Below, in pieces: positions 3,301-58,362 of a stretch of DNA of 64,000 bases. Below the pieces are notes generated by a model. That model was given only the letters and a program-made list of their open reading frames with translations. It was not told the origin of the DNA and did no database searches. The position numbers and the translations under genes are program-made. This DNA comes from Owenia fusiformis (lineage: Eukaryota; Annelida; Polychaeta; Sabellida; Oweniidae): contig CAIIXF020000007.1 of assembly GCA_903813345.2 (NCBI GenBank), positions 1,557,730 through 1,621,729 on the forward strand, in the 5' to 3' direction. Every line of letters starts with the position of its first letter. The first letter of the stretch is position 1.

Positions 3301-6300
3301 ATCCACAAAATGTGCCACGGGTCACTATACCTTTATTGAGATATTTATTACAAATTTGAAGAGAAACTGTGATACCAAAGCAGTCACAGTTCAATGATTC
3401 CTTGGTTCTGTGAATGAATTTGCCATGGATTACAAAGCTTCTTTGAAACACACTTACTGTGAACTCATATTAGACACCACTATCACTAGTAATCAGGATT
3501 TGGTGTGAATGGGACATTTCTGGTGTTAATTGGTATGAAAAATAATTTTACTACCATCTAACACCAAGTCACACCATAAAACTGGTGTGACTTGGTATGA
3601 AAGGATTAAGAGATTAAACCCCTGCTGTTCAACACTGAGTCATGCTGTTTGGCTGGTGTGAGATGGTGTTAGAATAAATTTTAATCCCTTTGATCTCTAC
3701 AAATCAAAATCCACACCAAGTCACACTGAAAACTTGGTGTTACTTGGTACACTGGCATGTAGCGGCCCTGATATCGATAAATTCTACACGCAATATAACC
3801 CGATTTTAGATGCTTGGTTAAAACTTTACACGAAAAAGCCTTTATATCCGGGCATTTACTCTTACACTGAACTGAAAATAGCATCGTCTAAACGTGTATG
3901 TCTTGGCTTCCGGGTAAGTTTATCAACATTTATACTCAATTGAAAGAGCAGTCGTGCTTATATCGTGTACCAGTTTGATTGTTTTATATGTGTGTGTATT
4001 TATAATATGATAGCCTAGTAATACCGTGTCGTTAGAACAAGTGCTAGATATCGAACTGATGACCTGAAATTAGATTATTGGACTGATCGCGCATCTGATA
4101 TTAGATGATTAATTTGCATTAAATCTGATATTAACTTGCAACCCAATACCACAGTAAATACAATGACTTTACATTAGAATGATAACACGGCCTCATATTC
4201 TAATTCATTATACGTCCATTGCAGGCCAAAAATGTTTCAATGTGGATATTGTAATGCACACGATAATACATTCGATTCGTATATATTGATCATACATCAA
4301 TATCCTAGATGCGAGTAGAAATAATCTTGATTTACGTCATTAAAAATTCACAATTCTGTCAAACTGGTGTCATATTTGGAATCTACATATAAAATTTCAT
4401 CTAAAAATGTGGTTTTGAAAATAGTTTATCAACTTTGAAAATTTAATTTTCTTTGACAATGTGATTTCTAGGTCGGCGAGATTCCCCATAGACCCCATGT
4501 TGTAATACTACAAAAAGCGAAATATCGTTTCTTGTGTTGGGCAGATAATATTTTCTTTTACTGGACATATTTTAATTTGTATAACTATCACATACATAAG
4601 GGTAATTTCAAAAGTGAACCACTAAAACTGATGCATATTCAGGTTTAAGGGAATTTTGTAATACCCTGCCATGTTATTTCCCCCGAATCAGCCACCTGGT
4701 GGCGAAACTGGTAACTACCTACTCGCATCTGAGTAATTCAACATGGAGATTTTCCTGTACACCTTTCCCAAACATGTGGAATAGACTAGATGCGAGTAGA
4801 AATTATCTTGATTTATCCTATGCCAAGTAGGGTTTTAGGGAGATAAGTTGGTAAGATATATCCCGTATCCTGATTTTGAGGTTTCCATATCAAGAACCTC
4901 CATATCTCCCGTCATATCTCCCGCTTCGGTGCATATCTTCCCGCTTCGGGGCGTATCTTCCCGCTTCCAAAAAGTGGAAATGCAATAAAATGACTTTGCA
5001 TATGAATGATTTGTTTATTTTTTACACCTTATACTACTGAAAACTCTACTTGGTATAGGATAAAGCAGTTATGTACGGTCGGTTTGGATATTGGGTTCAT
5101 CCCTCGTGAGATATGCACATCTACTTTCTGTCCCTACGGTCCCTCAGGTAGATATGCATATCTCACTCTGGAAAAACCCCATATTCAAAACCTCTCAGTA
5201 CATAACCCTTATTTATCCCATACTTGGACGTGTTACAGGTACATAAAGCCGGTTTGTAAAAACTTATATTTTCATCAGCGGGCAGATATAGCTTTACGTC
5301 CCGCTCCGAGCGGGCAGATATAGTATATCTGCCCGCTACGTCATAATCCCTGTTCCTGTATTGGTTCGTTTTTGTAATGTTCGACCCGGGCGTTCGCATA
5401 CTGTAAACTACAATGAAGAAAAACGCAGACAATCACGATCTGTTTGATGCTTAAAAGAAGAATACAAAACTGGACATGAATATTTTAAAATAATTCCACG
5501 GTAGGTTGCAAAGTTTCTGAACTGTGGCCAATTGGACAATGTGATTGGTATGGGATAAACAGATCATCCTATAGTCGGTTCAGGATATTTGGATTATCCC
5601 TTGGCCAATATAATATATCTACCCTCGGGACCTACGGCCCTCGGGCAGATATATTATATTGGCCTCGGGATAATCCCAATATCCTGAACCTCATATAGGA
5701 TAATCTCTATTTATCCCATGGTTACAAGGATATAGATCGAATATCACGTGAAGATATAATTGATACGTGGATGAAGATATAATATTTTAGCAAACAATTC
5801 CCAAATCATCGAATATCACTTTTGAAACCATCGAATATCACTTTTTGAAAGGTGATATTCGATGGTTTCAAAAGTGATATTCGATGGTTTTGATTTTTTC
5901 AATTTTTTTTATTAATTCAGCAAAACGATTGTTTATATATTTATTATATATTTTTATTTTTTGGGATCTTGTTTTTACGGCGTTCGCATTAAATACAAAC
6001 CACTCTGTTACGTCACGTATATGATGTTCGTTGAATTATCGCAATCAAAATCTCAGACGAAATGGAATTTCCATTGCAATTTATCTGACTATTCAATGTT
6101 CGCTGGATAATAATTCCCAATGGGATAAACGGACAATCCTATGGTTTTTCAAAAATATCACTTATATCCACTCATGGATATCAATATCTTCACTCATACG
6201 CTGCGCTCACTCGCGAAGATATCAATATCCACTCATGGATATGAGTGATATTTTTCAGAGCCATAGGATATTCCTATATTATTCCATAGTTAGCATGATA

Positions 6301-9300
6301 TCCATAGGATAACATGTCAAAATAAAAACGGTATTTTTGAAATCAGTGGTAAAATATGATATTTTTGGCAAAGGAGGAGGGAAGTTAGTGCAACAGATTT
6401 TGGACAGTCATGTTTGATTTTGGCCATTTCCTGGAGATTTAAACAGGTGCATATGTTAGGCGAGTGCATTAGCTCCAAGAAAATCACTTCTAGAGATGAT
6501 AAAATAATTTTGACTTTGAGACAGGGTAGATGCAAACAACCCACCCACATGTTTTTTCTGAAACGTTTTCCTGGTTTTCAACCCCTTCCATCCCTGCTTT
6601 TTTAATTTTTCTTGCATTAATATGTAGCATTTTGACACACAGATAATCCCTTAAAAGGAATAAATGATTCCTTTTAGATAAAGTGGAAAACAATATTTCC
6701 CATGTTATTTTCCCATAGGAAAAACCATTGCTTTCAGCTAAGTTTGGTCACCCATAATGGGTATCTTTAAAACCCCTGATGGAATCACGTATTCCTTTAA
6801 AGTGGTTAACTATGTGTCAAAATGCAACATATTGATGCAAGAAAAATTGAAAAAGCAGGGGTGGAAGGGGTCGAAAATTAGGAAAACATTTCAGAAAAAA
6901 CATGTGGGTGGGTTGTTTGCATCTACCCTGTCTCAAAGTCGAAATTATTTTATAATCTCTAGAAGTTATTTTCCTGGGGGTAATGCATTGACCTAACATA
7001 TAATGCAATTGTTTAAATCCTCAGAAAATGGCCAAAATCCAAAATATGACTGTCCAAAATCTGTTGCACTAATTTCCCTCCTTCTTTTCACTTAACCATA
7101 GCATACGGTGTTTTAGCCATGACATACATAGGGGTTATGCACTGGGAGGTTTTGGATACAGGGAATATCCCGAGGGATATACAATATATCTTCCCGAGGG
7201 ACCGAAGGGATCAAGGGAAGATATATTGTATATCCCAAGGGTTTTTTCCTGTATCCAAACCGACCATGCATAACTGAACTGTAGGTATTCCATACCTGAA
7301 GAGGTTTGAAATAATAAGCATGTATCCCATATGCTCTGGTGTGTTTACTTGCAAAATATGTTATCATTTTCAAAAAAAATTCAAATTGTTTCCATATTTG
7401 TTTTCAATTTTTTTCAAAAATGAAAAAAAAAATCTTTCACATTTTTTACATAATTTTTTTCAGAATTATCAAGATTTTTTCAAAATCTTTTTACACAATT
7501 TTTTTCAAATTTTTATTTTCAAATTTTTTTTCCCGAATTTTTTTTTTTCAACATTTTTTTTTTGAGCGGGACATACGATTTATATGTCCCGGAGCTCCGT
7601 TGGAGCGGGACATACGAAAAATATTTGCCCGGATATGGAATATATTGCCGGTTGATATGTCCCTGAAACCTCATCAGGTATGGAATACGGCGTCAAATGC
7701 CATGGTTTATGGATTTTTGCTACTTCAGACTCAAAACGAGGCTAAGTGTCAATATCGCCGTATCGTTTGGAAAAATCGTTTTAAATCACTTAATTCCCGA
7801 CGATTCTGATGATGACTTTAACTATGGAATATAAAGAACATCCTATGATTTACTCGTGATATGATTTTAATCCACTCTCTCGCTACGCTCACTCGTGCAG
7901 ATATCATATCCATTCGTGGATAAAAATCATATCACTCATAAATCATAGGATATCCTCTATTTAAGATGTGATATTCGATAGTTTAAAAGTGATATTCGAT
8001 GGTTTGTAAATTGTTTGCTAAAATATGACATCTTGATCCACATATCAAATATATCATCATGTGATATTCGATCTATATCCTCCTTGCAACCATGGGATGA
8101 AGCTTTACGTCCCGCTCCAAGCGGGCAGATATAGTATATCTGCCCGCTACGTCATAATCGCCGCTTGCATATTTGTTCATAATTTGTAACGTTCGCGGAA
8201 TGACTGTAAACAGCAATGGAGAAAACACAGACAATCAGGGTCTGTTTGATAGTTAAAAAAGGGAAAGAGCATCCACTTAATCAATAAAAAATTCGAGAAA
8301 ATAAATATGGGAATATTTGAGAGAACATGAAAATCCGCCCACGGCCAAGAAAACAAAACTGGACATGAATATTCTAAAATGTTTCCACGATTTAACAATG
8401 TGAACCAGATGACCAATATTGGTATGGGATAAACATATTATCCTATAGTCGGTTCAGGATATTGGGATTATCCCTTGGCCAATATATAGGGGTTATGCAA
8501 TTGGAGGTTTTGGATACAGGGAATATCCCGAGGGATATACAATATAATCTTCCCGAGGGACCAAGGGAAGATATATTATATATCCCTCGGGATATTCCCT
8601 GTATCCAAAACCTCCAAGTGCATAACTGTTGTATATAGTTTAGCATGATATGTACTTCTTTCTGTAACTGGAATACGATTCTAATATACAAGCAGCACAT
8701 ACGTATTCCAGGGGAACCATAAATATTTTGTGTAGGGTGTGGACATTTTTCTTTTCATTTCTCTAAAATCAGATTATTCTCATAAAATTCATACAAAGTT
8801 GGGCCTAAGCCTCTATTTTCGTATTCTGCATGTTAAGATATTTATAATGTAAAACCTAAGAGATAAATTCAATGTCTTCAGTTGAGAATAAGTATAAGGT
8901 AAATGTGTGAATTCTGCTTGTTGTTGCACTATTTTTATAATAAACAAGGTTCGATACGCAACACTGAATAGACTGCAGTCATAGCTTAGTTGTAAAGGAA
9001 ACAAAAGAAGTTGGGACGTGGTCATGCTTGAATACGATTTTGAATATATCGCCGTTTACATTTGTTGAAATCGGCCTGTATTAATTTCAACAGGTGATCG
9101 GTGTACAAGGGCATATATTTGAGTTATTGGTTTAACGATAAGTATGACCTATGAGTGGGTAATGTTTTACAAATGCATGAAACAAATACTCCAATGGCCT
9201 AATCTCAATTTTCCTGCATAAACTATTACATTGAAATGATGGTCATTTGCTCTCTAACTTCCGCACCGCATACGTAACTTCGTAACAATTCAATAAGCCA

Positions 9301-12300
9301 AGACAGGACCGCTATAATCGCTACATGCCAGTGTTGGTAGTAAAATTTGAAACTTGATTTTCATAGTTCTTGATTGCAATTTATAATTCCTTTAATCTTT
9401 TGATCTGCTTATTATTGTGTTTTTTCTAAGGGATTTGTCAACATGTCTAGAATGGAAACTAAACTTGTATTTTTTATTTAAGAACATGTTTATTTATCAT
9501 TATTTATTACTTGATTTTAGTATATATTTAAAACTTTAATAGTATTCTTATAGGTTTAGTTTGAGTCTAATTCATTTTTTCCAAATAACTAGAGAAAAAA
9601 CTTAATCGTCAAACATTCTAATTATTATTAATTGTTTTAAACCTTGAAGACTAAAACTTGATTTGTCAAGTTATTAAAATAGCATTATTAAAATAGCATT
9701 AACGGATGAGTGTCGCAAACAGGATTAATGTCAACCCAAAAGCAATTGAGCAACTGAGTATAATAAACAAAAAAATATCAAACATTGATGTCATGTTTTT
9801 TTGTTATTGCTACATTGTTTAAATAGATTTGACTTAACATCTAATGAGCCTCATTTTGCACAAACAGATAAACAAGCATAGTAAAAAATGTAAGGTAATA
9901 TGTAATGAACTACCCATCACTGCCATGTTATTAACACATTTAAATGAAAATTGACAAGGATGGGCAAATGTGCCCATACTGTAAACATAATGGAATGACC
10001 TGCTCAGAGTGTCACTGAAGTGTGGGCAGATGACAATTTGACTACTCATAAATGTCAGGTTTAGAGTCAATAATAGGATTAGTATGCCCATAGATAATTC
10101 CTAATTGCCCATAGATAGTCCAAATGTGTCCATACAGTACTGTAGACATAATGGAATGACCTGCTCAGAGTGTCACTGAAGTGTAGGCAGATGACAATTT
10201 GACTACTCATAAATGTCAGGTTTAGAGTCAATAATGGGATTACTATGCTCATAGATAATTCCTAATTGCCCATAGATAGTCAAAATGTACCCATACAGTC
10301 ATGTAGACATAATGGAATGACCTGCTCAGAGTGTCACTGAAGTCTGGGCAGATGACTATTTGACTACTCATAAATGTCAGGTTTAGAGTCAATAATGGGA
10401 TTACTATGCTCATAGATAATTCCTAATTGCCCATAGATAGTCCAAATGTACCCATACAGTCATGTAGACATAATGGAATGACCTGCTCAGAGTGTCACTG
10501 AAGTCTGGGCAGATGACTATTTGACTACTCATAAATGTCAGGTTTAGAGTCAATAATGGGATTACTATGCTCATAGATAATTCCTAATTGCCCATAGATA
10601 GTCCAAATGTACCCATACAGTACTGTAGACATAATGGAATGACCTGCTCAGAGTGTCACTGAAGTGTGGGCAGATGACAATTTGACTACTCATAAATGCT
10701 ACCCATATATTCCATCATATGGTAATGGACGTTTTGGCCCCATGTATGCTCGATAAATGCTCGGAAAATATGATATTGACCTTGGGCTATATCATATTGA
10801 CACTCGGTCGCTGCGCTTCCTCGGTCAATATCATATTACCCTTCGGTCATTATCATATTGTCCCTCGGAATAAAATACATCGACGAATTACTTTGTCTAC
10901 TTGAAAGATCAAACTTCGGATCAATGATAAGCTGCATTTCTTGCAGCGCCCCCACGTACGCAGACGATGTCTCCCTTCTTGCCAATAACAGGGACAGTCT
11001 TAATAACTTGATTTCAATTGCCATTAATTACTCCCAAAAGTGGAGGTTCAAGATAAATGTTTCAAAATCAAGCGTGATAACATTTGGCGAGTCGAAACCT
11101 GTAAATGAGAAACTACGGAAAACACGCGAGTGGTCTATTCAAAACGATGTGTTAGTTGAGGTTGATCGATGTAAACATCTCGGAAACATATACCAAGCTT
11201 CGATGAAAAACACTGATGCAGTCTCCAGCGCGTGTCATAAGTTAAAAGGCAGTTTCGCATCGCTGGCAGGAATTGGTGTACATCCGAAGGGTCTCACCCC
11301 TTTAACTGGCATACATCTAATTAAGACCATTTGTATTCCCACTGCACTTTACGGATGCGAGCTGTGGTTTAATATCACAAAATCGGAAATTCTTAAGTTA
11401 GAAATTGCTCAACGTTTCATCCTCAAAAGTCTATTTGAATTATTCAAATCTACCAGAACTGATATTGTATACGCTTTAACGGATCTGTTACCAGTCCAGT
11501 TCACACTTGACCTACGAAAGCTGTCGTTTCTCGGTCTGCTTTGCAACATGCAACAGCTGACGTTGACAAAGGACATCTTTCTGTTTAGAGCAAATTTGCT
11601 TTACGGCGGAAATCACCGGCAGGCAGGATTTGTCGCCGACATTTCAAACATTCTGAAAACCTACGAATTAGAACAATACCTGATTCAATATCTAGACAAC
11701 GGGTATTTTCCAAATAACATCTTGTGGAAACGCATTTGTAAATATGTAGTCAGACAACGCTTCCTAGTTCAAAGTGAATCTCAACGCAATGACATCAGAA
11801 TTTCCGTTTCTGTTTTGAGAGCTCATAATCTTTGGAACTTAGCCAGAAAACGGAATTATCTACTTCCGTATATTCTCACAGCAGTCAAAGTTTTAGCCAT
11901 GCCCGTCATTGACTCTAACCTTCTTTGCGATAGATGTGGCAATTTCTATAAGGATGCTATAAATCACATGCTAATCGACTGTAATGAGTACAATCACATG
12001 AGGAATAAACTCATTATTGACATTGCGTTACCCAACAACCACCCAGCGTTCGATCCAAGAAAAATCTGTGCTTCTGTATGCGGCCCTGCCTCGGAGTCAT
12101 TTGAGATACATAATTTAGAGCTCATCCTGAGATACATTCATAAAGTCATATCAGACTCAGGGATTAGTCTCGTACCCTTATTTGCATAAACTTGCAGAAG
12201 ATCTTGTAATCTGAAATTTTTATACTACTTTTAAAGATTGTAAATATGTTGTCACCTTGTTTATGTTTATGTTTTATGTTTATTGTATTAATCAAACAGT

Positions 12301-15300
12301 GTAATTAGTTTATATGAAATCCGATTTAAAATCGGGAATAAAAGATACATACATACATATATATCTCCCAAAAGTATGCAAACATATTCAATAAATATAA
12401 AAGTGATTTTAGAATTAATTTATTTTAATAAATCATAGTGGATTTAATTATGAAATTACTTTATTGCTGTATTGGAACACTGTACTAATAATCTATAAAA
12501 ACAATAAGTATAAGGCAATCAAGGGATCAAATACATGTTAAAATGCAATCAAGGATTAAGAAAATTAAGTTTTATGTTTTACTACCGATTCACACCAAAC
12601 TTTCAGTGTGCATTGGTATGAATTTTTGTTTGTAGAGATCAAAGGGATTAAATTTGATTTTCATACCATCTCACACCATCAGTATGGTGTGACTCAGTGT
12701 GAGGCAGCAGGGGTTTAATCTCTTAATCCTTTCATACCAAGTCACACCAGTTTTATGGTGTGACTTGGTGTTAGATGGTAGTAAAATTATTTTTCATACC
12801 AATTAACACCAGAAATGTCCCATTCACACCAAACCCTGATTACTAGTGTATATGTCTGTTAAATGGTTGTTTAACCCACCTGTGTTCATGTGAGGTCATA
12901 GGGTCAGGGTCAGCCATAGTGCCATCTAGGGGGACTGCAGCCTCACACAGAACATTAGGGATCTCACTAAGTGTCTTGGCTAGTGTGCGGATGAACTTTT
13001 CCCTAGCAGGTGATATAGTAAGTTTATCTGGAATGATACATACATGGAGTATATAATATTGCTAAACCATTCTAGTCACAATGACTGAGTACATAATTAT
13101 CATACTCGATGTGTATCATCAGTGTGGGTAAGCTCAATCTCTGTGTCAGAAATCCATGGGTCCATGGTTTGAGTAATGACAGTCAATCAATAGGAAAGTT
13201 AACTATTAGTAAGTCCAGAATCAATTCAATCATTTCATTTTACAAAAATAATTTTCCACTAATTTGGATTTTTTAAAGGCAGAATCAGATCTATAGGGGG
13301 TGACAAAATTACAAGCAACGTGCATAATTGACCTACCAATCTATTCCTTACAATATCAAATACAATATCTCCAAAAAGATTCACAATATGTTATAAATTG
13401 GTGAAGTTATTAATGATTCAAAGTGCAAAAAATGGGTGAAAAATGTTTAAATTCTCCCAAATAATAAGAATGGTAACCATTCTTATAGAAAAATAATACA
13501 TTATTGTAAAAATCTTTAGTTTTCCTTGAATAAAGTATGCACTTTTGTGATTTTTAGAAAATAGACATGACAAGGAATGACATGAGCCAAAAATATTCTA
13601 AAATTGAAACAATTTTTTGTTTAGCCTGCTCGCTATCTCTGATTCTCTCTTTAAAGAGAAATAAGTAATATATCAAGGGCACTGACCATGTCTATCGAAG
13701 ACTAGCTTAGCAGTGAATAGTGCTTCTCTGGGTGCTTCCCGGCCCTGGTCCATGCTGTCATTAACAAATGCAAGCACATTGACGCGTGCAATCTTCACCA
13801 AGGTTGCCAAGGTCATCTGATCGACAAGTTTCACAAAGTTACCAAGCCTCCTGTAATGCATAAAATGTAGGATATATCCCAAGATATATGTGCATGAACC
13901 ACTGGATCAGTTTTGACAAGTATCATTTGGAAACTTGAGGGTTATGGCCTAGTCACATAGCCCGGCCGATGTCCGGCATCGGTAGAGCTCGGTGGATTTT
14001 TTTGGTGCCACCGAGCTCTCCTCATCGGAAGCAGAGCTCGGTGACGTGAACGGACTCTGTCCGGACATCTTCAGGCGACCGACCGAACACCGGCCGGTGA
14101 CCGTACGGAGTCTGTCTCAAAATGGTAGTTTTTTCTGCCGATGTGGCAGCAACTACCGGCCGGAGGTCGGCCGGACATCGGAAGGAATACGACCGGTACC
14201 CAAGCAGGTAACAGGACACCGTGCGATCGCCGGCCGGGTTGTTAACGGGCTTTGAACAGTGACCGGCCGATGCTCTGTCCCACATCGGCCGGAGCTCGGT
14301 CGGAGCTCGGCCGCTGTCCGTTAAAAAACCTCGTCCTCTGGTTGTCTCAGATGCACGGGACACCCGCCGATACTCGGCCGTGCAACGGCTGACATGTTTT
14401 CCGATGTGGTTACGATGGGGCTGCGATGACATGATGAGGGAGCTCGGTGAGAGCCCGGTGAAATTTAACTCCGAAGTTAAAATTTCACCGAGCTACCACC
14501 GATGCGGTTTTAAGCAACAAATGCCACGGATGTCCGGCCGGTGTTCGGCCGAGTTCGGTGAAAATTGAATCGCTGGCTCATCGTAACCTCATCGGCCGGG
14601 CTATGTGACTAGGCCATTAGTCACTGAAAAGTTTAAATCACTCTGTTAAGTTTAAAAAAGTTTGGGGGCAGTTTTACTCAATCAATATTTGATATAATAT
14701 CAAATTAATTTAAACCACAAAATTTGGAGATCCATTCATCCGGTAATGGAAATTCATTTGCCAAAGTGTTTCTCTTAATTATTTTCAAGTAATACACACA
14801 ATGATGTAGCTTACCCTGCCTCATGTTTGGCCTTCTGAAGATTTGCTTCCCTTTGTTCACGCTTTATTCTCTGAAGATGTAGAGAATCCTTTGTGCTGAA
14901 AGGAAAGAAACTTCATCAACTTTATGTGCTTGGAAATATAGATATACACCCCCCTCCAAAAGTTTGGCAATCCTAACTCCCCATTAGATACAATGCTGAA
15001 CCCTGTGTTGAATCTTTCCCCAATTGCAACAACAGGCTTGAAGACATGCTCTAATGTGACAAAGGAGTTGGTGTACCATACTTTTGAGTGTAGTGTACAA
15101 TGTGCATACCTTGGATGGTAACATTACACGAGCTATCTCTGAATAATCATCTACAACACTGTAATAAATAAAAAAAATAAATAAAAAAAAATAAAAATTT
15201 CAATCTACATTGTACAATAAAATAAGGTCAATAAGACATATGTTTTGCCAGAAATATGTGTTCTGTTGTACAAAATGAGCAAAATTTTTATATGAAGAAA

Positions 15301-33900: not shown

Positions 33901-36900
33901 TTGGGCAAGGCTACCCCATCCACCCTATTCTAATCTTTCTGGAAACTACTCCCGATGTGATGCGATCCCATTCTGATACTCATAGCGTCTTTCTGTTTCA
34001 CCTGAAACATCATCTCAGGACTGAGAAGAAATGAGATGTCATGGTTTATCATGATGTGCGATCGTGGCATAACTTAAGCGAGCCCAAAAAATTCTTCAAA
34101 AATGAGATTGAAACTTCAAATGAAAAAAATTGAAAGCTCTTTTCTTCTATCTATCTATCGCACTCGCAACTCCCCCCCCCCTCTGCCGTCCAGAGAGAGA
34201 GAGAGAGAGAGAGAGAGAGTCCAGAGATAGTTTGCAAAGCGTGCTCACGGCTTTCCATGGAAAACATCACCAGTTGCAACTAGTCTCTTTTTTCTTTTTA
34301 ATTTTTTTTCTTTTTAAAGTTGCAACTAGTCTCTTCAACTGTCACTGACTGAAGATCACCTAGACACAGTTACATTATGTCAAGGTGAATACAAAATGTG
34401 CCCTTTTTGGAATGTTCAGGATTCACGATGGTCAGAACGAGATTGTATTTTTGATAAAACAAATGTATTACCTGTAAGCAGGTTTCAACGGATTTTGATA
34501 CACATTTTTTGCCGTGTGTCCTGAACCAGCAGTTTCCTAGATAAACATGACAACCGGGAGATAGTCTTCGGGCTGACATCTCGAAGCTGTTGTTTATGAC
34601 TTCAATACGGTATATCAATATTGATTTCCTCGCAAAGTATTAAAAAACAATTCGTCTTTTGATAGGCTTTTTTCAAAAATTTTACACTTAGCTTACGTCA
34701 TTTTAATTCATTCAAACCTAAGACTCGTGCAGATTATGTATGATTCAAATGATTTGATATGGTGATCAGAAACAAAATAGAAGTTCAAACAATACACATC
34801 TGAAATTGCTAGAAGGCATCGTGTGCCTCCCAAGGCCAGTAACATATCTATGCAAATAAATAAACAGTGTTGACCCACATGATAAATGGCTATAGGTCCT
34901 AAGCTTGAAAAACTATTTCTAGACTACTCCACGGTATATCTTCTGTAATCAAGGTGGTTCAGCAGTTAAAAAACAAGGAAGTATTTGGATTATAAGGAAT
35001 TAATATTTTGTTTTCATTTGATAATATTCATAAATGGTTCATGGGCATTCCATGCTTTGTTTAACAAATTTGAGACCTTTGTCTCTGATTGTCAAAAGTG
35101 AGACCTCCCAAATTGATTTTTAAAAATGAACTAAATGAAGTAAATTGTATATGATAATCAGAGCCGGGATTCAGAGATATTTCACCATTTTGAGTAGTTT
35201 TCGTGTAATTTTTGAGCAAATGAAAAATGTGACCTCGCCCCTGGAATAATTCAAGTCATCCCCTTAGCAAATGCTGGATTCGGCCCTGGTACTTGTCAAT
35301 GCGAAATAATGGGTGTTGATTAGTGGAAATACCCATTTAAACAGACCCTCTTAATTTAGAACAAGTTAACAATTAAGAAGCCATATTGCGATGTACTTTT
35401 CGTGACTCAAGTCGGATAAAAAGTGAAAACATACTCTTTTTGATTTGATATCCCGTATTTAGCTAAAGCAAAACATGAAATATTAACACGTGCGGTAAAT
35501 TATAATTTAAATGTTTTCATATACAGCGCAAAATCTCACATGGCAATTTAATAACGACTAATTTTGTCGTGTGTCTAACCACGGCGTGCTTAGAGATTTC
35601 TAGACTCTAGTCACGCTCTGTCCACGCCAGCTCTAAGCACGCCTAAGCACGCCTAGAAATCTCTAGATACACGGAGTTCCTAGACCGACTAAGCACGTCT
35701 AGAAATTACTAGAAATTCCACATTTGATGCAGTGTTAGCGCGTAGCGCGTGTTTTCATTATAACTATATATAATGAAATATTATATAGTTTCGAAAGAAA
35801 ATATGACTCTTGCGTGGTCTGAGATCGGCAAAAATAGCTTCAATAATATTTTCTTTTTGGACACCCTGTAGGTCGAAGGTGCAGGTCGAAGGGAGTTTTT
35901 ATAACATTCCTGATCTAACTTAGATATTTCAGATGATTTCCTAGTAGAAGAAACAGTTGTTTTGATTTCCGTCAAATTTGATTTTTTGATTTTCCCGGGC
36001 TTTTCTAGACGGCCAGCTGAACTGAGCTGGAAAAATGTGTATTTGTGACGTCACTCGTGCATAGGGTCAATAGCATCACTTGCTCAAAATTATAAACACA
36101 TAAATAGTTTCTTTGAAAACATGATCAAATCCTATCACTCCACCTCAATGGGAATTGAACCCATGACCTCCCAATTAGATCTCGAATGCTTCCACCGAGG
36201 TGGAGTGACTTTTTCACATCGGCCCTAAGCATAGGATTTGATCCTATATTTTCAAAGAAATTATAAACACATATACAGGTAAATAATACCATAAATTGAT
36301 TTTGAATTTTGGATCCAACTTGTTTAAAGAATATCCCAAAAAGTGTTTTAACGCCACTCAAGAACACTTTTAGTGCTAAATTGGAAAGTCAGATTTATTT
36401 TTATTGAGATGAAATAAAAAAAAGACTTGATACTTTATTATTGTGTTGTCAATAAAAATCACTTCATTAAACAAAATACGATAAATTAGTTTTCATTTTT
36501 ATTTTCAACAAATAATTTTACACTAAATTAAAATGTTTAATGCTGTATCCAAGTGTTAAATGGCCTAGTCTTCTCTTGTGTCTGAGGATTGTAAAATATG
36601 ATTTGAAGTATGTATTGTTGGGAAAAAGTGGTATCACATGGAGGGTCTGAAATGCAAAGAAAATGCATTTAGAAGTAGAACTGTAAATCAAAATATATAA
36701 ATTAAATTATCATATAATCCCCAAGAACTCTGATGGAATTAAATAATGTGTCCCTATTTCTCATGAATATTTTTCAATGCTTGAACAGAGTATAAACAAT
36801 GGATGTTTAACTTGTGAATTCAATTTTGATAAAAAGTGTTGAAATTATCATTAGAAAATTAGGATTGAAGCAGTTCAGTTCAGAGTTAAACAAAAACTCA

Positions 36901-39900
36901 CTTTAATATCCATATCCGTATCCCTGGGGTGCCACGTATCCATTGGGTCCAACAACCTTTCCGGTCTGGGCATTAATGTAACCACCATTGTCTCCAACAA
37001 TCAGACCGGATGGGGACTTGACAACAGCTTTGTTGGGTCCAACATTGGCATATGGATAGCCATCTCCATATGGGACGTATCCATAACCACGAGCCTGGTA
37101 TCCATAGCTTCTGTATCCATAGCCATTTCTGGGATATCCATATCCATAGTCTACTTTGCCATCACGGTTGGCATCAAGGGAATCTGGGACACCATCACGG
37201 TTCTCATCATCTCCGTATCCGTAGCTACGGGGAGCAGCACAGGCAATGGCCACAAGGGCAAAGAGGCACACAAACTTAAGCATTTTGAGAGAGATTCTGA
37301 AACATAGCCATATCAACAATAAATCAACATTGTCCTTGAATGCCATTTCTTTTTAAAAGACAATATATGACTTCTATGGGGATCAAGCTTTTCTCAAAAA
37401 ATAAGAACAATTTTATTTTTAACTAATGTTTCATTAAATAACTTACTCCATGCAATGGGTATATAATTTTTGAGTAACCTTCACTTCTGTTTGAAGTTCA
37501 ATAATCGTACCATACTCCAAAATATAGATCTTCCCTTTATAACTTTTTAATGTCTAACAAAAATAAAGGTTACTACCCCATATTTATAATCGAAAAAAAA
37601 ATGAGAAATTTTTTTATCTTTTAGAAGTTGATTGATGAGCCACATACTTATTTCTTAAATAGCCTCATTGTATTGTATTATATTGTATATTAATTGCTTA
37701 CCTTGGTATCTGTCTGACCTGATAAAGTGAATGATTTTCAAGTGAAACATTGAGCTTTTATACAAGTCACACCAGACACCCCAAGCAAGACACCCAACCT
37801 TACAATCCCAAATGCTCCTTCAGGCCTATGTTTATTAATTAAACAGCATAGATTAATTAAAAATAATTTTTAATTTGACTTACGTGTGGAAGGATTTGTT
37901 GTTATCCACTTGATGTAATGAAATATAATGAAGCTTTTAGGATTGGTCATTCAACTCTAAGGTTTACTAGCACATGTACATGAATTTCATTTTAATTAAA
38001 ATTTTTGAGGAGGATTTCTGAATATTTAGAATACATACTTTACATGTATTATTTCATATTTTATATACAGAGGATTAACAAGTACATTATGTCTTTCAAC
38101 TGATATAGGAAAGCTCACTTGGTAAAAGAAATTGGCAATACAAATTTAAGGGCAATAACTCAAATATGAGTAGGTAGTTATCAGTTTCACCATCAGGTGG
38201 CTCATTCGGGTCAGATAGCATGGGGGTATAGTAGAACGTTCCCTCTAACTTTAATATTCATCAGTTTTAGTGGTTCAATTTTGATATCACCCTTATGTAT
38301 CCAAAAGTTATGCAAATTAAAATATGTCAAGTAGAAGAAAATATTATCTGTCCAATACAAGAAAAGATATTTCACTTTTTGTAATTTTATAACGTTGGGT
38401 CTCTGGGGAATCTCCCCAAACTAGTCACATTTTCAAAGAAATTAAATTTTCAAAGTTGATAAGCAATTTTTGAAGCCATATTTCTAGATGTACTTTTACA
38501 TATTAATTTCAAATATGATATCACTTTGACTGAATTTTGAATATTTAATGACCTAAATCTAAATTATTTCTACTCAGATCTAGTCTATTTCCAATGAGAA
38601 AAGTTTCATTTTGTAACTACATAATGCTTATATTTAGATGACTATGCATGAAATCATACACCTGATTTATTAATACTAAGTAGAATGGATAGAGAGTAAA
38701 GTTTTGGAAGCAATCTTTTCAAAAAGATGCTAATGTTTCCCTAACAATTCTAATTTTAATTTCAGAATAAAGAATGAAGATCTCTGATCAAATATGGAAA
38801 TTATTGAAAATTTAAGGTGCAGAAATGTTCAAATTCATGAGAAAAAAGGAAGTGTCCAATATGATTTACAAGATGACTAAAAATCAGAGGATTATCTTGA
38901 AATAAAGTCAAAACTGTTTGACCTTTTAGGAAATATGCATGCCATGGTTAGTGCTCAGAATGGTGAAAACTTTGAAAGAATTTTTGGTTAGGGGGGGGGG
39001 GATTAGCTCGAACCTATCGAACCCCCTCAGTAAAATCTCAGTAAAATTAAGAATTGATTTACCAGCAAACCAGATTTTACACTTTTTCCAGCAGGTCTTT
39101 TTAATATACCTTTGATTACAATATCATTTGCTGCAGAGAATGTGATATGGAGGGAGGAAATAGAGTATCTATCGAGTAATGATGATGACTAAAAAGAAGT
39201 TGAAACAAATTGATTTGTATTGATTTCCATTTATTGGCAATAAGTTTTTATTAGTGTGGTCTTTAGAATTTCTCAATATTTCAATATTTTCCAGGTTAAT
39301 TTTGGTAACTCATTGTGTGCTTTTTAGAGAGAATTCGGTAATCATATTCTGTATGCTTATGTCTTGTCTTATACATCCTTAGCATAGTACAGCTGCTTAA
39401 TTGGCAGAATAGTTGCTAAGTTCAAAGGTGCAGTGCGTTTCTGCAATTTTGCTATCCTGAAGATTTAGCTAGAATAGCTAGTTAAGTTGAATATTTAGAA
39501 TTACCATTTAAAGTCTGAACTTCACCAAAAAGGTGGCTTATTAAAGCAGATATGAAATGGTATTTTTAACCTTAAGGAATCAATATAATTTTTTGATAGA
39601 TGTATTTGGACATGTTTTCTCATCAGTAGTGTGAAAATTTTTTCACTCTAACGATCGTTATAGCTGCTTAATAAGCAATATTCGAATTGGTTGTGACGTT
39701 ATTGGCCTCCACATGATCTCTCACTGGTCCCCACGTGGCCCATTTTGGTCCATTAAATCATGACGTCATAATACCAAGATGTTTTGTTATTTGATTACAC
39801 AACAATCCTATGGTTGCCGTGACGTTGTGATTACTAAGGGACCAATAAACCAAAGCTATATTTTGTATATGACGTTACTAATCACGTGGGGGCCAATCTG

Positions 39901-42900
39901 ATTGATCAGTTAGTTTTATTTCGGTATCTATGACCGTTAGCAGTTATCTTACATTTATTTTTAAATGGCTATTGCAAGAACTCCACGTTGGGCTTACAAT
40001 GGAGAAAACTGCATTTTTGTAGCTGCAAGTTGATAAAAGCTATTTCAGTTGTCCTTTAATGCATTTCAATCCCTCTTGGCATATACCCAGGGAGATATGC
40101 CGAGTACTAAAATAGTACTCATGGCATTTTAGCGCTAATTGAGTACTCATTTTTGTAAATATTAGTACTAAATGAGAATAAGTGACTCATAGAATAAGTA
40201 CTAAATTAGCACTCGTAGCATGAGTGCTCATGAGTGTGCTTTTAACAGAGTGCTAATTTAGTCCATATCTCCCTGTGTAGCCGATCTGGAGACCTAAGAA
40301 ATAATAATTTGCAGCGTTTTCCACAGGATTTTTTTCTCAAGTGGGTGGATACCAAATCTCAGGTGGGTGCTGCACCCAATTGCTTTAATGCTGGGGAGAT
40401 ACTGAATTTGTATTGTAATTTTACATCAAAATTTTCATGTTTAAGCAGAAAAGTTGGTGTTTTTTACTTAGTTAGAAAACAATTTGATTCCATATATATT
40501 GGAGTATGAGAGAGGGATTAATTCATTGCTGACCAAAGCTATTTTGGAGGTTTTCTGCTGGTGACTGGCTATATTGATTAAGAATTGAGCAAAATTGCAT
40601 GTTTTAATACTTGCATTAAATGGACAGTATCAACACTCTCTGTGCTGTTTTATGCAATTGTGAAGCCAATAAAATATTTTAAGGTCTCCAACATTTTTGT
40701 GGATGGTGGTTGGTGATGGTTGTCTGTAACAAATGGCAGGTCGTGACATTTTGCTTGTTAATGCATTGTTTTTGTTGAGATAAAAGACGTGGTTCTCTAT
40801 ATTACTGTATACATTTGTAATTGTGTTGTTATTAAAAATCACTTTATTGAACAAAATGCGATAAGTTAGTTTTCATTTTTATTTCAACAAATAATTTTAC
40901 ACTAAATTTAAATGTTTAATTTTGTATGCAAGTGGTAATCGGCGAAGTCTTCTGTGGTGTCTGAGGATTTTGAAATATGATGTTATATGAAGTATGAAAT
41001 TATGGGATAGGCCTGTAGCTATATCACGTGGAGCAAGTCTGAAATGCAAAGAAAATGCATTTAGAAGTAGAACAGTAAAATCAAAATATGTACAGTTAGA
41101 TTTATATGTAATCACCGAGATTAGAATTATTAGAAAGTTAGAATTGAAGTACTTGACATTTTTCAAAGATGCTTTCAAACAATATTTCAGTAAAATGTTA
41201 AAACAGAAACTAACTTTAATATCCATATTCATATCCCTGGGGTGCCACATATCCATTGGGTCCAACAACCTTTCCGGTCTGGGCATCAATGTAACCACCA
41301 TTGTCTCCAACAACTAGACCAGATGGGGACTTGACAACAGCTTTGTTGGGTCCAACATTGGCATATGGATAGCCATCTCCATATGGGACGTATCCGTAAC
41401 CACGGGCCTGGTATCCATAGCTTTTGTATCCATAGCCATTTCTGGGATATCCATATCCGTAGTCTACTTTGCCATCACGGTTGGCATCAAGGGAATCTGG
41501 GACACCATCACGGTTCTCATCATCTCCGTATCCGTAGCTACGGGGAGCAGCACAGGCAATGGCCACAAGGGCGAAGAGGCACACAAATTTAAGCATTTTG
41601 AGAGAGATTCTGAAACATGGTCATATTAAGAAATTTAAATCAGGAAATCTTTATATTTGATTATATTTTGATTATTTTCAAAAACTTAAATAATAAGGCA
41701 CATATTTATTTCTTAAATAGCCTAATTGTATTGTATTGTATATTAATTGCTTACCTTGGTATCTGTCTGACCTGATAAAGTGAATGATTTTCAAGTGAAA
41801 CTTTGAGCTTTTATACAAGTCACACCGGGCACTCCAAGCAAGAAACCCAACCTAACAATCCCAAATGCTCCTTCAGGCCTATTTTTATTAATAAAACAGC
41901 ATAGATTAATTTATATTAATTTCTCTTAAACAAGGATTTATGTTTTCCCATTGTATGTAATGAAATGTAATTAAGCCTTTAGGAGTAGTCATTTAATTAA
42001 AGTTTTGGATGTGAGGATTGAAAATTTAGTTTACTTGACCTTTCATATTACGCAAGATGTGTATTTTTTATTTTAGAGGTGCAATAAAGGATGCAGGCAA
42101 GCTAATGTTTAAGGATTTAAGCCTTGGACTCGGTGCATTGTGTGCTGAACCATTCCATGAAGATGTTGTTTCCAAATCTTTGCATGAGCCTTCAGGGGGA
42201 ATAAAAAGTTTAGGAAACAACATCTGAGTGGAATGAAACAGCCACAATGCATTGAGTCCTGGGCTTAAATTCTTTTCACACATTGCAAAATATTTTCTAT
42301 AAAATCACCTAAAAGATACAAAACCACTAAAAGAACATATTATCAATGAAACTTTTTGCAATGGTCAAGTATTGGAAATCTCAATCTCAATCGTTTAGCA
42401 CCTGTACACAACAAATGCGTTATTGATATTTCACACACTGTTCATTATGTGAATACTCTGTTCGGATTGGCTGGAATCGGACACACCTTGCCTAGCTATG
42501 TGTGAATACTTTTTATTGCACCTTTTATATTTGTGATCAATTTGGCAGGTGGGCTTCCCAGGTTTATATTGTATTCACAATTCCAGGCAAATCTTTTGAG
42601 GTATTGATTTTAAATGTTCAGACATGTTTCTTGTTGATTACCCGTTGAGCTACTTGTTAATGTTTTGAGGTGGTCATTTTGAATTTTTCAATTCATTTCA
42701 AATTTTCACTGGAATGTTTCTTGGTATGAACATCAAGAACTGAGAGACTTGTTCTTGGACAGACTTAGTTTTAAACTGTAGAATTTACTAACTGTAGAAT
42801 TCATTTCAAATTTTCAGGAATTTTTCGGAATGACACTAATATTGGTAGCCTTATTCACATTTAATTTGTCAGAACTGCAGAAGCAGTGGTATTTTAAAAA

Positions 42901-43893
42901 CTGCCACAGTCTTTGTATTTATACAGAGTGTTTATAATTGTGTATTTGTGAACTGGTGTATTGATTACATTATGTATTCACAGGCATGGTTCAACAGACA
43001 AGTTGCAGAGGACAATATTGTGATAAAGAAGCCTCTCTTTGAAGTTAACAGCTTCACAGCTAAGCAGGTAGGTTTGCATACAGCGTTTGATTTGATTTGA
43101 AAATTTGAAATATTTATTTTGGGTAGCTCTATCAGTTAGTTCACTAATCATGTGCAAGTCATTAAAACACACTCTGGAAGTTCACTATCAGCATGCTTGG
43201 AAAGTATCCCTGTGATGAGTGGTAAATGCACTCAATGAAATGAGGAATTAATTCATCTGTGTTTGGTTTGCATACAGCCAAAGATTGCTCATTCTCAAGC
43301 CCAATGTCCTGTTTAAGAACCCCTATTCTAGCTTTCGAAAATGGATTCTAGCAATACTATCCCACATGAATTTACTTGTTGAGACTTGATCCACTTGAGT
43401 TCTTCTGAGAAAATGAGGATTTTAGCAAGGGTGCATTGACTCAAAATGGCGACATACACCATTGACTATTGACTTAGCGTGGGGATGCCATCAAGTATAT
43501 CAACATGTAAAGTCAGCGCACCCTTGCTGAAATCCCCATTTTCCCAGAAGAACTCAAGTTGATCGAATCTCAACAAATAGATTCCTGTTCGATAGTATTG
43601 CCAGAATCCATTTTCGAAAGTTAGAATAGGGGTTCTTAAACAGGACATTAAAGCTGATTTAAGGCATTTTTGAAATTATTGTTTAGTACTATAAGTTTCT
43701 AATTGATATTGTTGAATTTGTTTAGATTGGATCTGATGCCAGGGTGAGGCTTGAGTCAAAGTTAAGAGAGGCAGGGTTACATAACACAGACTATGCCAGG
43801 AGTATGCTGAAACAAATGCAACCACCTCAGGCACCTAGGAGAGATATGGAGTCTACTGTCTTCAAACTGCCGAAACCCCAAGATAACACATAG
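24974..43893 (+). CDS. CCDC148: Coiled-coil domain-containing protein 148
   Basis: Coding exons: 24974-25034, 25266-25638, 26179-26351, 26841-27024, 27302-27452, 27661-27739, 28067-28194, 30162-30302, 30646-30764, 31237-31405, 42984-43067, 43726-43893. They total 1830 nt (609 residues plus stop, close to the vertebrate protein at about 590), and all phases agree. Family signatures are the N-terminal KYKAVDYDQLKAF, the central EDHFVYAAISEQYP...RRLYFLDRM...PHK (about 285-310), a long charged coiled coil over residues 385-525 (exons at 28067-31405), and a C-terminal LREAGLHNTDYAR...RRDMESTVFK that is nearly diagnostic. Its molecular role is poorly known; sharing a promoter region with an axonemal dynein is compatible with a ciliary role, which is inference. 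The tenth intron (31406-42983) is 11.6 kb and hosts two genes on the opposite strand. Confidence 0.93.
25965..26106 (+). repeat. Dispersed repeat family R1, copy 1
   Basis: Core segments are TTGTTGTAATCTCCAAC, TTTTTGTGGAT, TTTGGCAGTTGGTGT, CTGTAACAAATGGCAGGTG and GCATGTTATTA. Related copies occur at 28399-28491, 40680-40773 and 61276-61367, all in the same orientation, with a 3' fragment at about 29943. Confidence 0.65.
28399..28491 (+). repeat. Dispersed repeat family R1, copy 2
   Basis: Contains GTGGTGACATATTGTTATGG, TCTCCGTTTTTTGATGG, GGTTGGTGGTTGG and GTTTGTAACAAATTCTTAC, a diverged match to the other R1 copies. Confidence 0.55.
28613..29426. mobile_element. hAT-like MITE, 814 bp
   Basis: The ends are CAGGGCTCTC and GAGAGCCCTG, inverted. 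They are flanked by AGATC at 28608-28612 and 29427-29431, which reconstructs the uninterrupted tandem-repeat sequence AAAAGATCTTTTTT when the insert is removed. The CAGGG ends suggest hAT, though the readable duplication is 5 rather than 8 bp. The interior has a GTGTGGCG/CGCCACAC hairpin near 28640-28670 and no transposase. Confidence 0.65.
29094..29205 (+). repeat. 56-bp tandem duplication
   Basis: GTAAACAGGAAGTCAAAA...TATGGCCTGCC...CCAGCA occurs twice with a 56-bp step (29094 and 29150) inside the hAT-like element. The two copies differ at a few positions. Confidence 0.75.
31669..31849 (+). pseudogene. THAP-type zinc finger exon (transposase N-terminus)
   Basis: ATG at 31669 opens MPKCCVAVECSN, then GITFYRFPSD, RNLWINAVKR and LCSAHFLS. 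This matches the THAP C2CH pattern: C-x4-C near the N-terminus, the FYRFP motif, the invariant Trp (LWINAV), and C-x2-H (CSAH). The exon ends at a TCAG|GTACAG donor exactly where THAP first exons commonly end, before the C-terminal AVPTIF-type segment. No second exon was identified downstream. Either a decayed transposase or the captured first exon of a THAP gene. Confidence 0.75.
32034..32942. mobile_element. Nested inverted-repeat element, about 0.9 kb
   Basis: The left arm (CACGGGTTACTAGAGTATCC ... GAGTATGACCGGTTCTAAG) and right arm (CTAAGAACCGGTCATACTCC ... ACTCTAGTAGCCCGTG) are inverted, about 75 bp with a few mismatches. Boundaries are approximate. It lies inside the THAP element. Confidence 0.6.
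34194..34220 (+). repeat. (GA)n microsatellite
   Basis: Uninterrupted GA dinucleotides follow CCGTCCA. A C-run precedes it at about 34171-34180. Confidence 0.95.
36138..36222 (-). repeat. tRNA-like sequence (tRNA-derived repeat or pseudogene)
   Basis: On the minus strand an 11-bp potential acceptor stem (CACTCCACCTC with GAGGTGGAGTG) encloses GGTGGAAGC, a variable anticodon-region segment, and GGTTCAATTCC, a perfect RNA polymerase III B-box/T-loop. The A-box is weak, and the flanks form an additional inverted repeat (ATCAAATCCTAT / ATAGGATTTGAT), both unlike a normal tRNA gene. A tRNA-derived SINE head or tRNA pseudogene fits best. Confidence 0.45.
36903..37283 (-). CDS. Secreted Tyr/Gly-rich protein with Asp-rich Ca-loop motifs, copy 1
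   Basis: 126 residues. Residues 1-17 (MLKFVCLFALVAIACAA) are a clear signal peptide. The start of the mature chain has DDENRDGVPDSLDANRDGKVD, two overlapping D-x-N-x-D-G-x-x-D loops as in thrombospondin type 3 or EF-hand-like calcium sites. The middle is YG-rich (YGYGYPRNGYGY, ARGYGYVPYGDGYPY), and the C-terminal half has PSGLIVGDNGGYINAQTGKVV and ends GYGYGY. A 5' UTR exon lies upstream at 37702 to about 37725, spliced to an acceptor at 37297. The start is MLKF rather than an upstream ATG at 37346, which lies in the UTR intron. Small secreted Y/G-rich proteins are frequent in invertebrate shell, tube or cuticle matrices; the exact role is unknown. Nested in a CCDC148 intron on the opposite strand. 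Confidence 0.9.
   Translation of the reverse strand: MLKFVCLFALVAIACAAPRSYGYGDDENRDGVPDSLDANRDGKVDYGYGYPRNGYGYRSYGYQARGYGYVPYGDGYPYANVGPNKAVVKSPSGLIVGDNGGYINAQTGKVVGPNGYVAPQGYGYGY
37755..37762 (-). promoter_or_regulatory. TATA box (TATAAAAG) of secreted-protein gene copy 1
   Basis: TATAAAAG on the minus strand lies about 30 bp upstream of the presumed first exon, which ends with AGATACCAAG|GTAAGC at 37702. The same box and spacing are conserved in copy 2. Confidence 0.75.
38164..38583 (-). mobile_element. MITE-like element with AGATGCGAGTAG ends, copy B
   Basis: Reverse-complement, diverged copy of 4307-4740: shared segments include AAAATATGTC, AGATAATATTTTCT-type and CCCTTATGTA. The ends are degraded (GAGTAGGTAGTTA at the left, TTTCTACTCAGATC at the right). 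Confidence 0.6.
40680..40773 (+). repeat. Dispersed repeat family R1, copy 3
   Basis: Contains GGTCTCCAACATTTTTGTGG, GGTTGGTGATGG, CTGTAACAAATGGCAGGTCG and TGACATTTTGCTTGTTAATG. It lies at the outer edge of the copy 2 duplication unit. Confidence 0.65.
41216..41596 (-). CDS. Secreted Tyr/Gly-rich protein with Asp-rich Ca-loop motifs, copy 2
   Basis: 126 residues, the same design as copy 1: signal peptide MLKFVCLFALVAIACAA, paired Asp loops, YG-rich centre and a C-terminal GYEYGY. I count 13 nucleotide and 4 amino-acid differences from copy 1 (Arg/Lys, Ile/Val, Asn/Asp, Gly/Glu). The 5' UTR exon starts near 41780 and ends at the donor at 41754; the acceptor is at 41610. Conserved TATA box, UTR intron and reading frame indicate that both copies are functional genes. 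The product is predicted to be secreted, calcium-binding by motif, with function unknown. Confidence 0.9.
   Translation of the reverse strand: MLKFVCLFALVAIACAAPRSYGYGDDENRDGVPDSLDANRDGKVDYGYGYPRNGYGYKSYGYQARGYGYVPYGDGYPYANVGPNKAVVKSPSGLVVGDNGGYIDAQTGKVVGPNGYVAPQGYEYGY
41808..41815 (-). promoter_or_regulatory. TATA box (TATAAAAG) of secreted-protein gene copy 2
   Basis: Same sequence and position relative to the first exon as in copy 1. TATA promoters are typical of strongly, tissue-specifically expressed genes. Confidence 0.75.
43303..43649. mobile_element. Fold-back MITE in CCDC148 intron 11
   Basis: The left arm (AATGTCCTGTTTAAGAACCC onward) is the reverse complement of the right arm (GGGTTCTTAAACAGGACATT end) for about 140 bp per arm, including ACTCAAGTTGATC-type segments. 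It fills most of the intron between exons 42984-43067 and 43726-43893. Confidence 0.75.
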
Positions 43894-45278: not shown

Positions 45279-52801
<7,523 letters not shown>

Positions 52802-56100: not shown

Positions 56101-58362
56101 ATCACTTCAGAAATAGAAGTACAGGTGTAAAAAAAGAATGTGGACCGAACACAATTGTGATCATAACGAGCCTATAAGCTTGTATGTAATTACCCTAGAG
56201 TTCTCATACTTTTTACAATCATTAGTACCATTACTTCTAAATGCATGTTTACTTGGGGTATCTGAATGGCACACTAATTTTGCCTTAATTTTTGTGATTT
56301 TCAAAGTTTAGATGCAAAAAGAGGGAGTTATTGTCTAACAATCAACCAAATGCAATTATTTTAAAAAGTAAATGTTTGACCCTATAGCCCCCCCGGCCCT
56401 TGTCAAATATAATATTGTCTCTCCGAATAAAGCCCATATTCAATCCCTCCCAGTAAATAATATCAATTTCTGGCATAGAATTACATAATATCTGATTTTA
56501 TGGGAATCATTGCATATGTTTTATGTTTAGTGAAAATATAAGTATGAAATAACTGCAACTTCAATTTGCCTTTCATATTGCGATTCATCATGTGTCATAG
56601 ATATACAGCTTAGTAGAGCCTACCACCAGATGTTGCGTGAATTCCTGTGTTATCAGAAACACATCATGCAAATTTTATGCAATTCTCATGACTATGAATT
56701 ATTTTTCAGGTATTCCCCCACCATTTAAACCAAAGACAAGGTTTGATGTGATTCGTTGGGATTACTTTACAGAGACACAGATTTTCTTGGAGAATGACTT
56801 CAGCAATGTCAAGCCTCTCACTGGTATGTCATGCTGTATGTAACCATGGCAACACCCAATACATCTGTTGCATTATTGTCAATGCAATAATTATATCTCT
56901 TTATAAACAATGGCATATTTATCCATTGAACTTTTACTACACAACAATTGAATGAATTTTATATTTTTATCTGGTCGTAACTATTCTTTGTCCATGATAA
57001 TTTGTCAATATTAACCATATGGTAAAAATGATAGTATTGAAATTGTGTCAATACTTGCTTGTTCATTTATCTATTTTGTTTGTGTCGTGTTTATGTCAAC
57101 AAAAGGTCGTTGTGATATTATTAAAGCCACCCTTTTTGCGACCAGCATTAAATGATGCCATCTGCATCTGTAATCAATTACACTTTGTGGATATTGTTTG
57201 TTGTTTTACACCTTGTTAACTTTAATAGTACTTTTTAGGTGTACATAAACTTGACGTTGATGATGTAATTACAACCAGTCTAAAGAGACTCAATGAAAAA
57301 TATGGTGACATCTACAACTTTGGTCGTCTTGTGAATGGATACAGAAGATTTGATCCAACCAGAGGTATGGAGTACACCCTCGATCTTACCGTTAAAGAAA
57401 AGTTTGGCAAATCCACTGAGATTCATAAACGAGTCCACTTGGTGCGTCCTCTCAGTCAAGTGGAAATAGTCCCAATGCCTTATGTCACTGAGAACACCCG
57501 CGTGAACCTTATCCTCCCTGTGTCTGCAGAGGATCGTGATGGCGTCGTCAGTTTTTTGGATTCATATGCGCATACTTGTCTGGATTCGGGTGATAACACC
57601 AATCTGTTTATTGTTTTCATATACAATCCACAGGACCCTATAGATAAGGATGATATATTTGCGGTGTTAAAAAGTATGATTACATATTACGAGAACAAAT
57701 ACCAAAATGGTGCTAGGATTGCATGGACAAGCATCCACAGCAGCAGTCCTAATCCAGAATTTATCGTCATGGATGCAGTCTCGAAAAAATTCCCTCCACA
57801 ATCTTTGTTTTTGATCTGTAGTGTCGGGATGGAGCTTGCGATTGAATTTTTAAACAGAGTACGCATGAATACAATTTCTGGCTGGCAAGCTTTCTTCCCC
57901 ATTGGATTCTACCAGTATAAGCCCAATCTGATCTATGATGAGACCCCATACCCAACAACCATTGAAATAAATAAAAATGTTGGCCATTTTGATAACAATC
58001 TATATGAACAAGCTAGCTTCTATAACTCTGATTACCAATATGCTCGCAAAACAATCTCAGATTCAGTGATATCCAAAATTGAAATGTATGACATGTTTAT
58101 CAAGTATCATCACCTCCATGTTTTCCGGGCAATTGAACCAGCTCTGAAGCATCGATTTAGGGAACGTCATTGTAAGCCTACACTTACAGAAACAGCTTAT
58201 AAACGATGCCTGAAGAGTATTGCCACAGGTCTGGCCAGTCGATCACAGCTAGCTTTGTTGATATTTGAGGAGCAGCGAAAAGTCGACAAGCTGCAAATAG
58301 ATATAAAACACAGACAACATGATCCTAATGTTGAACTTATGAAACCTGATATGTTAAAATGA
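53104..58362 (+). CDS. CHPF: Chondroitin polymerizing factor (CHPF/CHPF2)
   Basis: Coding exons: 53104-53814, 54674-54802, 55142-55281, 55822-55940, 56710-56823, 57239-58362. They total 2337 nt (778 residues), in phase, close to the roughly 775 of vertebrate CHPF. A single membrane anchor (about residues 10-35, VTPMIVGLCLGIALSLIL) makes it a type II Golgi protein. Lumenal family landmarks are YTSTELGIREKLFIGVLTS, RFDVIRWDYFTE, the conserved NGYRRFDPTRGMEYTLDL, MPYVTE, and MNTISGWQAFFPIGFYQY. Together with chondroitin synthases it extends the GlcA-GalNAc chain. The acidic metal-binding motifs of active synthases are absent: IPDTTY replaces the first DxD region and LFLICSVGME the second, fitting a non-catalytic partner. 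The start is ATG at 53104 in a CACCATG context; an earlier in-frame TTG is not used. CHPF and CHPF2 cannot be separated here. Confidence 0.93.

Follow-up and report, generated by a model that had tools for sequence, protein, structure and literature searches.

CACTA elements have been described as carrying inverted ends, a 3-bp target-site duplication and, over several hundred base pairs, subterminal repeats that lie close together in direct and inverted orientation (PMC8978399); CAC..GTG ends combined with 3-bp duplications have likewise been taken as consistent with EnSpm (PMC12730594). The ends alone do not settle the group of such an element, since a piggyBac family with CACTAGA ends has been published and Spongebob, an animal family of the CACTA group, is given CCC ends and 2-bp duplications (both in PMC4298943).

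The locus analysed in the present study lies within a 64-kb stretch of Owenia fusiformis DNA, referred to as the window. It shares with CACTA/EnSpm elements the CACTA ends, the 3-bp duplication and the subterminal direct and inverted repeats, and differs from them in that no transposase was found in the 13 of 56 open reading frames (ORFs) scanned inside it. The 9.4 kb between its ends are, in all likelihood, made up of a non-autonomous CACTA/EnSpm-like transposon of about 3.8 kb and a 5584-bp transposon nested in its left arm, together with other repeats.

Ends, flanks and arms of the outer element

The features that define the outer element are as follows (window coordinates; features without an orientation are marked as unstranded).

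3481–3483, unstranded: left TAT, one copy of the 3-bp target-site duplication
3484–12848, unstranded: outer CACTA-like element, delimited by paired ends, arms and TAT flanks
3484–3749, plus strand: outer part of the left arm, with a 37-bp motif repeated three times (at 3561, 3632 and 3713)
9340–9422, plus strand: inner part of the left arm, displaced by the nested transposon and aligning to the right arm after joining to 3749
12497–12848, minus strand: right arm, full length of about 350 bp
12849–12851, unstranded: right TAT, the other copy of the 3-bp target-site duplication

The left terminus, CACTAGTAATCAGG, begins at 3484, and its inverted copy forms the right terminus, the last base of which is 12848; both end motifs (CACTAGT at 3484–3490 and ACTAGTG at 12842–12848) and the TAT on either side are present where the first-pass annotation had placed them. 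Of the lengths from 2 to 9 bp, the flanks match at 3 bp only. The element is now 9365 bp long, and 3775 bp long when the nested transposon and one TTGGTA are subtracted. Its insertion site has ACCAC on the left and ATGTCTG on the right and, with a single TAT, would read ..ACCACTATATGTCTG..

The arms at 3484–3749 and 12583–12848 (266 nt) are 89% complementary, with one difference in the outermost 144 aligned columns, in agreement with the earlier description of a near-identical inverted arm of about 145 bp extending to about 270 bp. Arms that are near-identical over 144 bp and continue to about 350 bp are longer than is usual for CACTA inverted repeats. The inner 210 columns contain 49 differences (Fisher p = 1.5e-11 against 1 in 144 for the outer part); this step in divergence may reflect homogenisation of, or constraint on, the true ends, or inner parts that were different from the outset. 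Outside the element, the flanks have no arm-like similarity (local scores of 14 and 15), and the similarity of the arms is far beyond chance.

The crowding of GGTGTGA/TCACACC near the ends, also noticed at first pass, is borne out by the counts: 10 of the 14 GGTGTGA matches in the window fall inside the two arms, and a total of at least 14 was reached in 1 of 100 shuffles. The looser pattern GGTRTKA occurs 45 times, 22 of them in the arms, where about 0.1 per arm would be expected from the rest of the window. The 37-bp motif is present in six copies, three per arm, the others being 65–84% alike to the first, which served as the reference. By eye, this first copy (3561–3597) is itself an inverted repeat.

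Several of the shorter signals carry little weight when taken singly: the 7-base end motif is not enriched (ACTAGTG occurs 4 times in the window, 6.2 being expected), the TAT pair by itself has a chance of about 2% of matching, and chance readily yields pairs that combine perfect ends of at least 12 bp with a 3-bp repeat, of which the window has 11 and 20 block shuffles gave 51. The weight of the evidence for the outer element therefore lies in the long arms, which start exactly at CACTA.

A second transposon in the left arm

The similarity of the left arm to the right arm stops at 3749/3750, 266 bp from the end, and the start of a second transposon coincides with this point.

3744–3749, unstranded: TTGGTA, left target-site duplication of the nested transposon
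3750–9333, unstranded: nested DNA transposon of 5584 bp, with ends CACTGGCATGTAGCG / CGCTACATGCCAGTG
9334–9339, unstranded: TTGGTA, right target-site duplication of the nested transposon

The sequence CACTGGCATGTAGCG lies at 3750 and its exact inverse ends at 9333, which gives perfect inverted ends of 15 bp. When 3749 is joined to 9340, the left arm is restored along the right arm, gap-free at the junction (CTTGGTAGTAAAAT versus ATCGGTAGTAAAAC), which brings each arm to about 350 bp. As a control, 8500 positions were tried in turn as the continuation of the left arm and scored against the right arm; the best join fell exactly at 9340 (score 450), compared with 390 for the unjoined arm and 408 for the highest-scoring join at a distance of over 30 bases. 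Segment 9340–9460 alone scored 60 against the inner right arm, where 2000 dinucleotide shuffles gave a mean of 18.9 and a maximum of 33.

The interval 3750–9333 is the sole pair in the window that combines perfect ends of at least 12 bp with a 6-bp duplication; 20 block shuffles produced one such pair in total, and about 3e-5 chance partners of 15 bp are expected within the element. In an alternative reading, the nested ends start one base farther outward, as ACACTGG.., and the duplication is the 4-bp TGGT; the empty site is identical. Because the perfect ends and the duplication lie at the break and their removal restores the arm, 3750–9333 is read as a second DNA transposon, and it came after the outer arm existed, whether here or before the outer element reached this locus. 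The first-pass annotation had missed this nested transposon, which interrupts the left arm and accounts for 5.6 of the 9.4 kb.

Contents of the element

The first-pass annotation had reported a LINE, a satellite and many palindromes inside the element and no visible transposase. The LINE ORF, a 161-bp array and the palindromes are all present, distributed as listed below.

4299–4738, unstranded: repeat in the nested transposon, 82% alike to 38154–38589
5050–8640, unstranded: palindrome cluster in the nested transposon, including 5550–5719, 6370–7087, 7124–7276 and 8482–8628
9977–10698, unstranded: 161-bp satellite-like array, 4.5 copies
10876–12355, plus strand: 5'-truncated LINE, start and end approximate, the end being taken from the tail

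The ORF set consisted of 56 stop-to-stop ORFs of at least 50 aa, of which 13 lying inside the element, plus one flanking exon-like ORF, were scanned against Pfam. Neither a transposase domain nor a recognisable host gene was found among these 13 of the 56 ORFs, and no family reached its curated cut-off in any scanned ORF, the reverse transcriptase of the LINE included; the flanking exon-like ORF, which overlaps the edge of the element, had no Pfam match.

The LINE frame aligns to positions 133–194 of the 205 in the reverse transcriptase profile (E = 1.8e-5, 25 bits; curated cut-off 29.6), and the LINE is taken as 5'-truncated, as the match starts only at profile position 133. The frame is stop-free over 437 codons from 10876 and, since it is still open, the LINE is probably not old. 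A search for a target-site duplication of the LINE found none that was convincing. In the viral_contigs collection, two stretches fitted a pattern made for LINE relatives, and tblastn confirmed neither.

Several further matches were attributed to chance. They comprise two matches of the minus-strand ORF 8816–9055, to bacterial VEG (E = 9.4e-4, 19.6 bits, cut-off 25) and to TMTC (E = 0.049), a Sterile match at 4618–4827 (E = 0.074), and five PDB matches (E = 0.33 to 0.64) of the open frame 3662–3940, which spans the left end of the nested element and had no Pfam match. A zinc-finger-like reading near 4231 was likewise dropped, having no Pfam match.

The 161-bp array may be a part of the outer element or a third insertion. 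Pearl/HINE non-autonomous Helentrons of bivalves are described with short arrays in which a unit of about 160 bp is repeated up to six times (PMC7492417), and the 4.5 copies of the 161-bp unit resemble these as an array.

Affinities of the nested element

The nested element has CA..TG ends, which we take to be hAT-like in appearance. Its 6-bp duplication, TTGGTA, corresponds to the feature for which the hAT6 group of hAT is named (PMC12730594). The likeness is limited by the 4-bp reading of the duplication and by the lack of a Pfam hAT match in the 12 scanned ORFs overlapping 3750–9333, although a non-autonomous copy would lack one. hAT6 is our best guess for this element, and no membership is claimed.

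The other groups compared fit less well. The 6-bp duplication would suit IS3EU, but the nested ends are CACTGG..CCAGTG, as against the TAYGG..CCRTA given for IS3EU in fungal families (PMC12730594). The EnSpm-Mirage-Chapaev-Transib clade is assigned duplications of 2 to 5 bp in the same source, a range that would take in the 4-bp reading but not the 6-bp one. Dada-U1 and Dada-U6 have 6-bp duplications and do not fit because they are described, in the account given of them, as having no terminal inverted repeats (PMC3706591).

A possible host gene around the insertion

An exon-like minus-strand frame, bordered by AG and GT, ends 31 bp from the element, at 12880, which makes it plausible that the insertion lies in an intron. 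The first-pass annotation had placed the element in a dynein intron; the intron part of this statement is plausible, and the dynein part was not confirmed, as no match to dynein heavy chain was obtained with 12 different exon-like queries from the minus strand, two of which combined several pieces, in Pfam or, for those compared with them, in PDB sequences. Since such searches could miss a divergent dynein tail, the dynein label is unconfirmed rather than refuted. With the joined tail-like query, PDB gave two matches at a limit of E = 10; the better one (E = 0.083) was to a chain of the outer dynein arm docking complex rather than to a dynein heavy chain, and was attributed to chance. Among the genes lying further right is one for a chondroitin N-acetylgalactosaminyltransferase, in keeping with an animal source.

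Alternative readings of the locus

The outer element might belong to another CAC-ended group, namely Chapaev, Chapaev3, Transib or piggyBac; we consider this unlikely, even if a transposase that could decide the matter was absent from the ORFs scanned. Duplications are 4 bp long in Chapaev, 5 bp in Transib and 3 bp in Chapaev3, and consist of TTAA in piggyBac. The flanks match at 3 bp only and not at 2, 4 or 5 bp, which speaks against Chapaev and Transib, and the 4-bp flanks, CTAT and TATA, are not the TTAA of piggyBac; the duplication length of Chapaev3 would fit, while the combination of CAC..GTG ends and 3-bp duplications is the one treated in print as consistent with EnSpm (PMC12730594). 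It is far less probable that 3750–9333 is a rearrangement that broke the left arm: the inverted end is only 15 bp, the window contains no second end pair (no other match to the nested end sequence with up to three mismatches) and the 12 overlapping ORFs scanned lack a transposase, but against it stand the perfect 15-bp ends, the 6-bp duplication that sits right at the break, and the gap-free resumption of the arm. Comparably improbable is the idea that the two arms are independent small elements that face each other by chance, a reading to which the greater divergence of the inner arm columns lends something. The first-pass annotation had pointed to an inner terminus in each arm as the sign of such elements, and this was looked for and not found: within 3484–12848, CACTAGT occurs only at 3484 and ACTAGTG only at 12842, and the best internal ungapped inverted match to the first 30 bases is 18/30. 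As neither arm has an inner terminus, the arms are taken to bound one element; moreover, a single TAT pair flanks the whole and, after joining, both arms fade at the same inner point.

A further question is whether the entire 9.4 kb constitute one mobile unit, with the nested transposon, the array and the LINE already aboard as cargo when the outer element last moved. The near-identity of the outer arm columns, as after a recent move or conversion, the intact state of both ends and the open frame of a LINE that is probably not old are compatible with this, and the near-identical arms and the open LINE frame fit a recent outer insertion. The nested insertion, however, requires no later move by the outer element, its load includes no recognised host gene in the ORFs scanned, and no second copy is present in the window, so that we regard the single-unit reading as improbable. 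It is similarly doubtful that the composite is still mobile as a 9.4-kb unit which, with its arm split, spreads pieces of transposon, satellite and LINE as passengers.

Origin of the 9.4-kb structure

The reading preferred here is that of a short CACTA/EnSpm-like transposon interrupted by a second one. According to this scenario, the element of about 3.8 kb would have inserted in the apparent intron, duplicating TAT, and a transposase from an autonomous relative elsewhere would bind its long, motif-rich arms; the restored arm shows that the 5584-bp DNA transposon entered the left arm at a point 266 bp inside the terminus, with duplication of TTGGTA. The present size of 9.4 kb would then reflect repeats that accumulated rather than useful cargo that was captured. 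The evidence comes from one locus: the 64-kb window contains no further copies of the outer element, and exact end patterns gave no match in viral_contigs (patterns of 40 and 22 bases) or in genome_contigs (25 bases), collections that are not expected to include animal DNA.

Of the 9.4-kb non-autonomous CACTA element initially proposed, the paired CACTA-type ends remain and the size does not, since 5.6 kb of it are a second transposon. The accompanying suggestion of a cargo carrier is not supported, as these 5.6 kb have ends and a duplication of their own and much of the remainder consists of the satellite-like array and the 5'-truncated LINE; the whole is better read as mobile elements nested in an ordinary way. 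What looks like a giant non-autonomous element can thus be a nest, and one alignment across the internal break is enough to reveal the arm resuming. If copies of the whole composite existed, they would point to a CACTA-type element able to move with a split arm.

Repeats and Possible Coding Remnants within the Nested Transposon

The left end (3762–4300) of the nested transposon, a second DNA transposon (3750–9333) inside the left arm of the outer CACTA-like element (3484–12848), contains an open frame running up to GTAAGT, and a short zinc-finger-like reading is located near 4231, 3′ of a possible acceptor, and is interrupted by the repeat 4299–4738. A Pfam scan of the frame and the zinc-finger-like reading revealed no match; together, they are perhaps the remnant of a transposon gene. 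The nested transposon also holds a 718-bp foldback repeat (6370–7087), which aligns with its reverse complement at 81% similarity across 735 columns. Five palindromes in the window, each about 150 bp long, form one family; four of them are in the nested transposon. Two further palindromes lie outside the outer element.

Palindromes in the window
5066–5216, ~150-bp family, nested transposon
5550–5719, ~150-bp family, nested transposon
7124–7276, ~150-bp family, nested transposon
8482–8628, ~150-bp family, nested transposon
45664–45817, ~150-bp family, elsewhere in the window
42111–42274, further palindrome, outside the outer element
43303–43649, further palindrome, outside the outer element

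Other Coding Sequences in the Window

Two other exons were found, the first of which we take to belong to a proteasome subunit.

46314–46727, minus strand, AAA-ATPase exon (E 3.2e-5)
57229–58359, plus strand, chondroitin N-acetylgalactosaminyltransferase exon (E 6.3e-107)

A short minus-strand ORF is present in two copies (36874–37326 and 41186–41642; 94% alike), the first of which gave no Pfam match above the cut-off. The ORF reads as a glycine-tyrosine-rich, secreted protein that includes a DENRDGVPDSLDANRDGKVDYGYG stretch, and the pair looks like a recent duplication.
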